This document shows positions 19,443 through 20,444 of a DNA stretch of 34,317 nucleotides, piece by piece. Source of the stretch: Crenarchaeota archaeon 13_1_40CM_3_52_10 (GTDB lineage Archaea; Thermoproteota; Bathyarchaeia; 40CM-2-53-6). The position numbers and the translations under genes were made by a program. The notes under the pieces were generated by a model. That model searched no databases. It had not been told where the DNA came from and was given only the letters and a program-made list of their open reading frames with translations. The DNA lies in contig MNGO01000070.1 in assembly GCA_001918765.1 (NCBI GenBank), positions 1 to 34,317 on the forward strand, read 5' to 3'. The first letter of the stretch is position 1. The number at the start of each line of letters is the position of its first letter.

Positions 19443-19667
19443 CTATATCACCTTTGGTTCAGATGCGGTCGTTCTCGGCATCTTCAGCTCTGCCACGATA
19501 GCCCTAGCTTCCCTCGCGTCTTTAGCAGAGGTGAGGATGGCCAGCTCGAGAATCTCAAATCGTCGCGAGCACTGAGAACACGTCTTGCTCTTGTTCCTGG
19601 AATCAGCAATCTGATAGGTCTGGCAACGCGGGCATTTGATAATCCAGAACCTCTTTCTCTCAGTCAT
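19443..19667 (-). CDS. Zinc-ribbon protein, DUF1922-like
   Basis: 'WIIKCPRCQTYQIADSRNKSKTCSQCSRRF' has CxxC...CxxC. The track ORF starts at 19709; the internal Met (MTERKRFW) at 19667 is more likely. Confidence 0.75.
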   Translation of the reverse strand: MTERKRFWIIKCPRCQTYQIADSRNKSKTCSQCSRRFEILELAILTSAKDAREARAIVAELKMPRTTASEPKVI

Positions 19668-20233
19668 AGCGTTCTCTCCAACTCTAACGGATCGTATCGA
19701 GCAAGCCAATTTACTACTCCAGACCTACCGGTTTTCCCTCTCGACAAAGCACGTAACGCTGCCCTGTAAACTGCCGGGGCCGATTTTCGAGTGGTGTCAA
19801 TCTCATACACTCTCCGGGGTCCCAGTAGCGAGCGAGACTCATGGAGAGATACGTCTAATATCTCAGCTTCTGTGTTTTCCCATGATTTTCTTTTCGTCCA
19901 CCCTCTCGCGCGCAAGCGCCTATACAGGACCATTGGGTCTAGGCGAAGTACGAAGGCTAATTTCACTGAGGATGTCGGGAGAAATCTTCCAATCAAGTGA
20001 GTTGGCAAAACTATTCCCTCGGATGATCGTGACAACGCCTCCAACCGCCTTCGAAGCTTTTCTTCATCGACAACATAGGTTTTCCTAGCTCTGTCAAAGC
20101 GAGTGTAGAGCTCTTCTTTCCTTACCAGATGGCTAAGTTCGATCAGCTTGAAACCTGATTTCTGGGAGAGTTTCCTGGCCAGTGTGGTTTTTCCGACTCC
20201 GGGTGTTCCGGTTATGAGTATGATGTTGGCCAA
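19664..20233 (-). CDS. AK6/Fap7-type adenylate kinase (P-loop)
   Basis: 'MANIILITGTPGVGKTTLARKLSQKSGFKLIELSHLV...YVVDEEKLRRRLEAL'. Confidence 0.9.
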   Translation of the reverse strand: MANIILITGTPGVGKTTLARKLSQKSGFKLIELSHLVRKEELYTRFDRARKTYVVDEEKLRRRLEALSRSSEGIVLPTHLIGRFLPTSSVKLAFVLRLDPMVLYRRLRARGWTKRKSWENTEAEILDVSLHESRSLLGPRRVYEIDTTRKSAPAVYRAALRALSRGKTGRSGVVNWLARYDPLELERTL

Positions 20234-20246
20234 GTTTGTGGTCTAG

Positions 20247-20357
20247 TGCTCCGGCCGGGACATTCAGGCTCTTTAGAGCCTTTTGAACCCGGGTCGCCGG
20301 ATCGAGAGTCCGGCATACTCTCGGCCAAACTTGTGGACCGGGCTATACTACCGGAGC
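20247..20357 (-). tRNA. tRNA-Glu (CTC), interrupted by candidate introns in the D-loop and T-loop
   Basis: Precursor on the minus strand: GCTCCGGTAGTATAGCCCGGTC[CACAAGTTTGGCCGAG]AGTATGCCGGACTCTCGATCCGGCGACCCGGGTTCAAA[AGGCTCTAAAGAGCCTGAATG]TCCCGGCCGGAGCA. Acceptor 7 bp (GCTCCGG/CCGGAGC), D stem GTAT/GTAT with G-U pairs, anticodon stem CCGGA/TCCGG around CT-CTC-GA, T stem CCGGG/CCCGG. Spliced length 74 nt. Confidence 0.88.
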
Positions 20358-20444
20358 ACAGGCTCCCAGAAAATAAGTTTCAGTTAAGGATTGTCGTTTT
20401 TCCGAACCTCACATGCGCCATTCACACTGGACATTTGCCCGGAA

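Follow-up and report, generated by a model that had tools for sequence, protein, structure and literature searches.

At positions 20247-20357, on the minus strand of the window (the whole stretch of DNA that was analysed, 34,317 nt), lies what is almost certainly a functional archaeal gene for tRNA-Glu(CTC), present in a single copy, with two predicted introns of the bulge-helix-bulge (BHB) type, one at position 20/21 and one at position 59/60. The window comes from contig 41 of a 74-contig, 1.33-Mb MAG that is 69% complete. Its organism is an uncultured soil member of the Bathyarchaeia and not of the Thermoproteales, in which, according to an earlier note on this DNA, multi-intron tRNAs are best known. 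The features of the locus, with tRNA positions where these apply, are as follows:

20247-20357, minus strand: tRNA-Glu(CTC) gene including the discriminator A73; CCA is not encoded; the spliced form is Glu(ctc) by ARAGORN
20335-20357, minus strand: exon 1, positions 1-20b, GCTCCGGTAGTATAGCCCGGTCC, compared with intronless orthologs
20337-20340, minus strand: core helix of the D junction, exon side CGGT, pairing 4/4 with GCCG at 20322-20325 in all D-intron-bearing relatives
20320-20334, minus strand: intron 1, position 20/21, D-loop, 15 nt, ACAAGTTTGGCCGAG, predicted relaxed bulge-helix motif; missing in intronless class-mates
20322-20325, minus strand: core helix of the D junction, intron side GCCG, invariant in all D introns examined in the order
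20282-20319, minus strand: exon 2, positions 21-59 (3' strand of the D-stem, anticodon arm, variable loop, 5' strand of the T-stem, TTCAAA)
20304-20306, minus strand: anticodon CTC (34-36), by ARAGORN on the spliced sequence
20284-20287, minus strand: central helix of the T junction, exon side TTCA (54-57)
20261-20281, minus strand: intron 2, position 59/60, T-loop, 21 nt, AGGCTCTAAAGAGCCTGAATG, predicted strict BHB; present throughout the order
20267-20280, minus strand: inner helix of intron 2, GGCTC (20280-20276), loop TAAA, GAGCC (20271-20267), with covariation
20263-20266, minus strand: central helix of the T junction, intron side TGAA
20247-20260, minus strand: exon 3, positions 60-73, TCCCGGCCGGAGCA
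19664-20233, minus strand: AAA_18 / adenylate-kinase-like gene, the downstream neighbour, with a TTG start 13 nt after A73

In its unspliced form the gene received no call from ARAGORN and had no match in Rfam when the raw window was searched, and a permissive Rfam scan of the window gave chance matches only. Once both inserts are removed the cloverleaf is complete, and ARAGORN reads the spliced 75-mer as tRNA-Glu(ctc) in which all three arms (D, anticodon and T) are complete, in agreement with the earlier claim that all stems are intact. Intronless orthologs from class-mates (e.g. G118) measure 74 nt vs 110 nt in the MAG, both without A73, and this gap of 36 nt equals 15 plus 21 nt. The orthologs and the call on the spliced form thus bear out the two non-canonical introns, in the D-loop and the T-loop, that the earlier note had proposed, and its statement that the gene has no canonical 37/38 intron holds as well. 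Some of its measurements need adjustment. The size of the T-loop insert, 21 nt, was right, whereas the D-loop insert, put at about 16 nt, measures 15 nt; a spliced product of 74 nt is correct without A73 and becomes 75 nt with it. The boundary of the D-loop intron can slide by 1 nt with the product unchanged, because intron 1 and exon 2 both start with A.

At the T-loop, the predicted junction has the form of a full BHB. The T-stem (CCGGG/CCCGG) provides the outer helix, UUCA/UGAA forms 4/4 pairs in the central helix, and two bulges of 3 nt each (AA↓A and UG↓U, the arrow marking the cut) are followed by an inner helix of 5 bp, GGCUC/GAGCC. This hairpin had been recognized before; the pairing beside it had been given as TTC/GAA, and the splice-competent pairing would instead be UUCA/UGAA. 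Among shuffled T-loop inserts, a 4-bp central helix together with an inner helix of at least 5 bp arises at a frequency of 5.5e-5, a control that ignores relatedness. Further information comes from a comparison of 28 distinct 59/60 introns, mostly from the organism's own order and some from other archaea. Over four inner pairs, 101/111 cells (91%) are paired in the true register, against 50/106 (47%), 55/109 (50%), 69/112 (62%) and 30/112 (27%) with the partner slid by -2, -1, +1 and +2, again in a control that ignores relatedness. Inner-helix pairs 1-4 occur as several pair types, including G-C, C-G, A-T and T-A, and the sequences of the helix differ between families f1, f3, f4 and f5. One subclade of the genus forms only 3/4 pairs in its central helix. 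The case for predicted BHB introns is carried by comparison and covariation, because the fold-energy optimum alone lacks the BHB: at the T-loop, a 6x6 internal loop beats it by 2.3 kcal/mol.

The D junction, as judged from its pairing, is a relaxed hBH/BHL motif and not a strict BHB, so that the BHB-type junctions expected in the earlier note form at both sites, strict at one and relaxed at the other. Its core, CGGU/GCCG, is 4 bp long and has cut-site bulges CC↓A and AG↓A at 3-nt positions on both sides; an internal loop lies between this core and the D-stem, which would be the outer helix. The D-loop introns examined in the order are 11-23 nt long, and since the core partner is invariant, the D junction yields no covariation. 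The inner helix has 2 bp in the MAG, 0 in several relatives and 6 bp in G031. A junction this far from a strict BHB could be taken to mean that the T-loop insert alone is removed and the D-loop insert stays, giving a mature tRNA with an enlarged D-loop. We regard this as very unlikely: ARAGORN calls no tRNA when the T insert is removed and the D insert kept, the 4-bp core stands at the expected spacing in all D-intron-bearing relatives, and splicing would leave an 11-nt D-loop ending in A21, which equals the uninterrupted D-loop of intronless class-mates. Moreover, some archaeal splicing endonucleases accept BHL and relaxed forms as substrates (PMC12397907). Removal of both inserts is the reading preferred here. 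With the D insert removed and the T insert kept, ARAGORN does call a tRNA, its T-arm being distorted.

Relatives were examined for the same arrangement. Three genomes of the same genus (G004, G012 and G014; 94-95% complete) have one tRNA-Glu(CTC) copy each, with both introns present, and a second tRNA-Glu(CTC) was not found in the MAG; as far as the data reach, the search for another copy and the test for BHB-type junctions, both proposed earlier, went in favor of the intron reading. Across the order, the T-loop intron is found in all six families (f1-f6), the D-loop intron in f1, f3 and f5, and the canonical 37/38 anticodon intron in f2, f4 and f5, with all three in f5. One f2 genome, G019, has a D-loop insert of a different kind. 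Most of the class members listed outside the order have neither the D-loop nor the T-loop intron, and G055, a member of f9, carries a D-loop insert in Glu(TTC). The Glu(TTC) genes of the genus have the T-loop intron too. The nearest named records with the gene are soil 'Candidatus Bathyarchaeota archaeon' MAGs, e.g. isolates BA_4 and BA_25. The states found at this one gene form a ladder (59/60 with 37/38; 20/21 with 59/60; all three; none, in class-mates) that is useful for the study of intron gain and loss.

This distribution also bears on whether the gene could be a tRNA-Glu(CTC) pseudogene, decayed and bearing two insertions, with tRNA-Glu(TTC) reading GAG codons in its place. Such decay is extremely unlikely with all stems intact, with inserts that recur, accompanied by compensatory changes, at the same sites in numerous species from several families, and with no second CTC copy found; and while a tRNA-Glu(TTC) that could in principle wobble-read GAG exists in the genus, its genes there carry the T-loop intron themselves. 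That standard finders miss the gene is the other point in favor of decay. A functional gene with two introns remains our reading.

The genes for splicing are in keeping with a substrate of this kind. The MAG holds two genes that match the PF01974 profile, with 96 and 46 bits, which answers the count of endA-type subunits suggested with the first reading, and most genomes of the order likewise have two matches. The first, an EndA alpha subunit of 189 aa, matches A. pernix 3p1z with an E of 6e-42; in the alignment to 3p1z, the catalytic Y/H/K are intact and DFAVY, IDHAP and VRK are retained. In the crenarchaea-specific loop, K-P-K aligns to K44-P-R46 of A. pernix, so the loop lysine is present. 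In crenarchaeal enzymes, position 44 is reported to be conserved as lysine and position 46 as a basic residue, and the loop has been linked to broad specificity (PMC12397907). The second paralog, of 176 aa, aligns with the EndA fold and is missing the catalytic residues. An alpha subunit with catalytic residues and loop lysine beside a beta-like paralog favors the broad-specificity endonuclease that had been predicted from the gene: the pair would be of the (alpha-beta)2 type, with assembly and specificity read from sequence. RtcB was not found in this 69% complete MAG and is found in 36/38 genomes of the order. In four genomes (G010:C14, G017:C2, G004:C11 and G034:C118), an in-frame insert of ~1.5 kb interrupts RtcB, the presumed exon ligase, after about residue 50, the open frames being near 1000 aa; the insert is probably an intein.

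What is observed is the sequence, its conservation, its pairing and the endonuclease genes; that the RNA is cut and joined, and which insert leaves first, is inferred. The tRNA-Glu(CTC) precursor would be transcribed whole, and EndA, as a putative (alpha-beta)2 heterotetramer, would cleave both strands of each bulge, at CC↓A and AG↓A in the D-loop and at AA↓A and UG↓U in the T-loop. The exons would then be joined, presumably by RtcB, into the 75-nt tRNA, to which CCA would be added.

The interrupted state is not confined to this gene. Run on nearly the whole MAG (1.329 Mb of contigs), ARAGORN returned Arg(GCG) as the sole intact tRNA, besides two malformed calls. A BHB-splicing search of the MAG gave two-intron genes for Glu(CTC), Met(CAT), Arg(CCG), Gly(CCC) and Thr(CGT) and a one-intron gene for Leu(TAG); the spliced forms all pass ARAGORN and the unspliced forms all fail. 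Two further solutions, L161 and L221, are probably in the wrong register and were left out of the count. A strict screen for acceptor plus T-arm picked out 13 candidates, of which 12 are tRNA-like, in the genome and 0 in the reversed genome. Many other tRNA genes of the MAG are interrupted in the D-loop, variable loop, anticodon or T-loop (e.g. L159, L165, L182, L187, L194 and L147). When genomes at least 93% complete were put through one search throughout, which counts Rfam tRNA matches and not introns, the median was 14 for the five genomes of f1, 21 for nine genomes from the other families of the order and 37 for 86 genomes of the class outside the order. Order and rest of class differ with a Mann-Whitney p of 4e-9, the genomes not being phylogenetically independent. 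The low counts in the order fit a pervasive disruption of tRNA genes; gene loss may also lie behind them. We lean towards the view that in the order of Bathyarchaeia that includes this soil genus most tRNA genes are broken by BHB introns, with minimal bulge-helix-loop introns of 11-15 nt. If this is true, the order would join Thermoproteales and soil Asgard archaea as a separate, independent case, and tRNA intron saturation would be recurrent and not bound to heat. Estimates of completeness and repertoire from tRNAs would be wrong for such soil MAGs unless BHB introns are searched for, because near-complete genomes of the family give less than half the Rfam tRNA counts of the rest of the class.

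Non-canonical tRNA introns are well known from other archaea. Sites 20/21 and 59/60 are both listed among the non-canonical positions, and both hBH junctions and tRNAs with several introns are well established (PMC4090602). A close parallel is found in Thermoproteales such as Pyrobaculum and Thermofilum (PMC4090602, PMC3218864, PMC8450103), which are alike in these two sites, in having several introns per tRNA, in BHB/hBH junctions and in an (alpha-beta)2 EndA, the last being predicted here. In contrast to these hyperthermophilic hosts, the present introns belong to uncultured soil Bathyarchaeia, in which some D-loop introns are as short as 11 nt and have no inner helix. Caldiarchaeum subterraneum, from a different archaeal lineage, also has a multi-intron tRNA-Glu, and its tRNAs carry introns in the D-, V- and T-arms (PMC3293823); the likeness drawn here for its tRNA-Glu is that it has several introns. 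A comparable intron load has been published for Asgard archaea from wetland soil: in Atabeyarchaeia and Freyarchaeia, 92-95% of tRNA genes contain introns, often non-canonical and multiple (PMC11291895), and a Freyarchaeota record has a T-loop intron in tRNA-Glu, as in the MAG. These belong to another phylum, and the figures come from complete genomes, whereas ours is a 69% MAG with a partial survey.

Outside the class, the 59/60 intron recurs in tRNA-Glu of Brockarchaeota, 'Thaumarchaeota', Woesearchaeota, Aenigmatarchaeota, Borrarchaeum and other Asgard records, with the same acceptor/T-arm, position and UUC(A/G)/UGAA core; these records were found by one exact pattern, and some of the genes hold further introns. 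In two of them, L061 (Thaumarchaeota SJ3.Bin70) and L075 (Brockarchaeota DRTY-1), tRNA-Glu seems to combine introns of the D-loop, the anticodon and the T-loop, and its D-loop intron again ends in GGCCGAA. No report on tRNA introns of Bathyarchaeia was found in the open-access literature, most subscription papers lying outside the search. The tRNA-Glu(CTC) gene is thus a well-supported example of a known intron class, in a clade for which no report was found.

The region upstream of the gene is conserved. It contains an element, GGTTCGRAAAACGACAAYCCTTAACTGAAA, at 20378-20411 on the minus strand, that recurs in G006, G017, G008 and G011 beside unrelated non-tRNA sequence. A shared tRNA promoter ~20-55 nt upstream was considered for this element and rejected: the copies in relatives precede non-tRNA sequence and there is a single one in its own genome, so it is not a tRNA signal. 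Downstream, the gap between the 3' end of the tRNA and the TTG start of the adenylate-kinase-like gene (20234-20246, 13 nt) is an arrangement kept in the genus. Possibly the tRNA and this mRNA form a cotranscript in which the 5' end of the mRNA is made by 3' processing of the tRNA.
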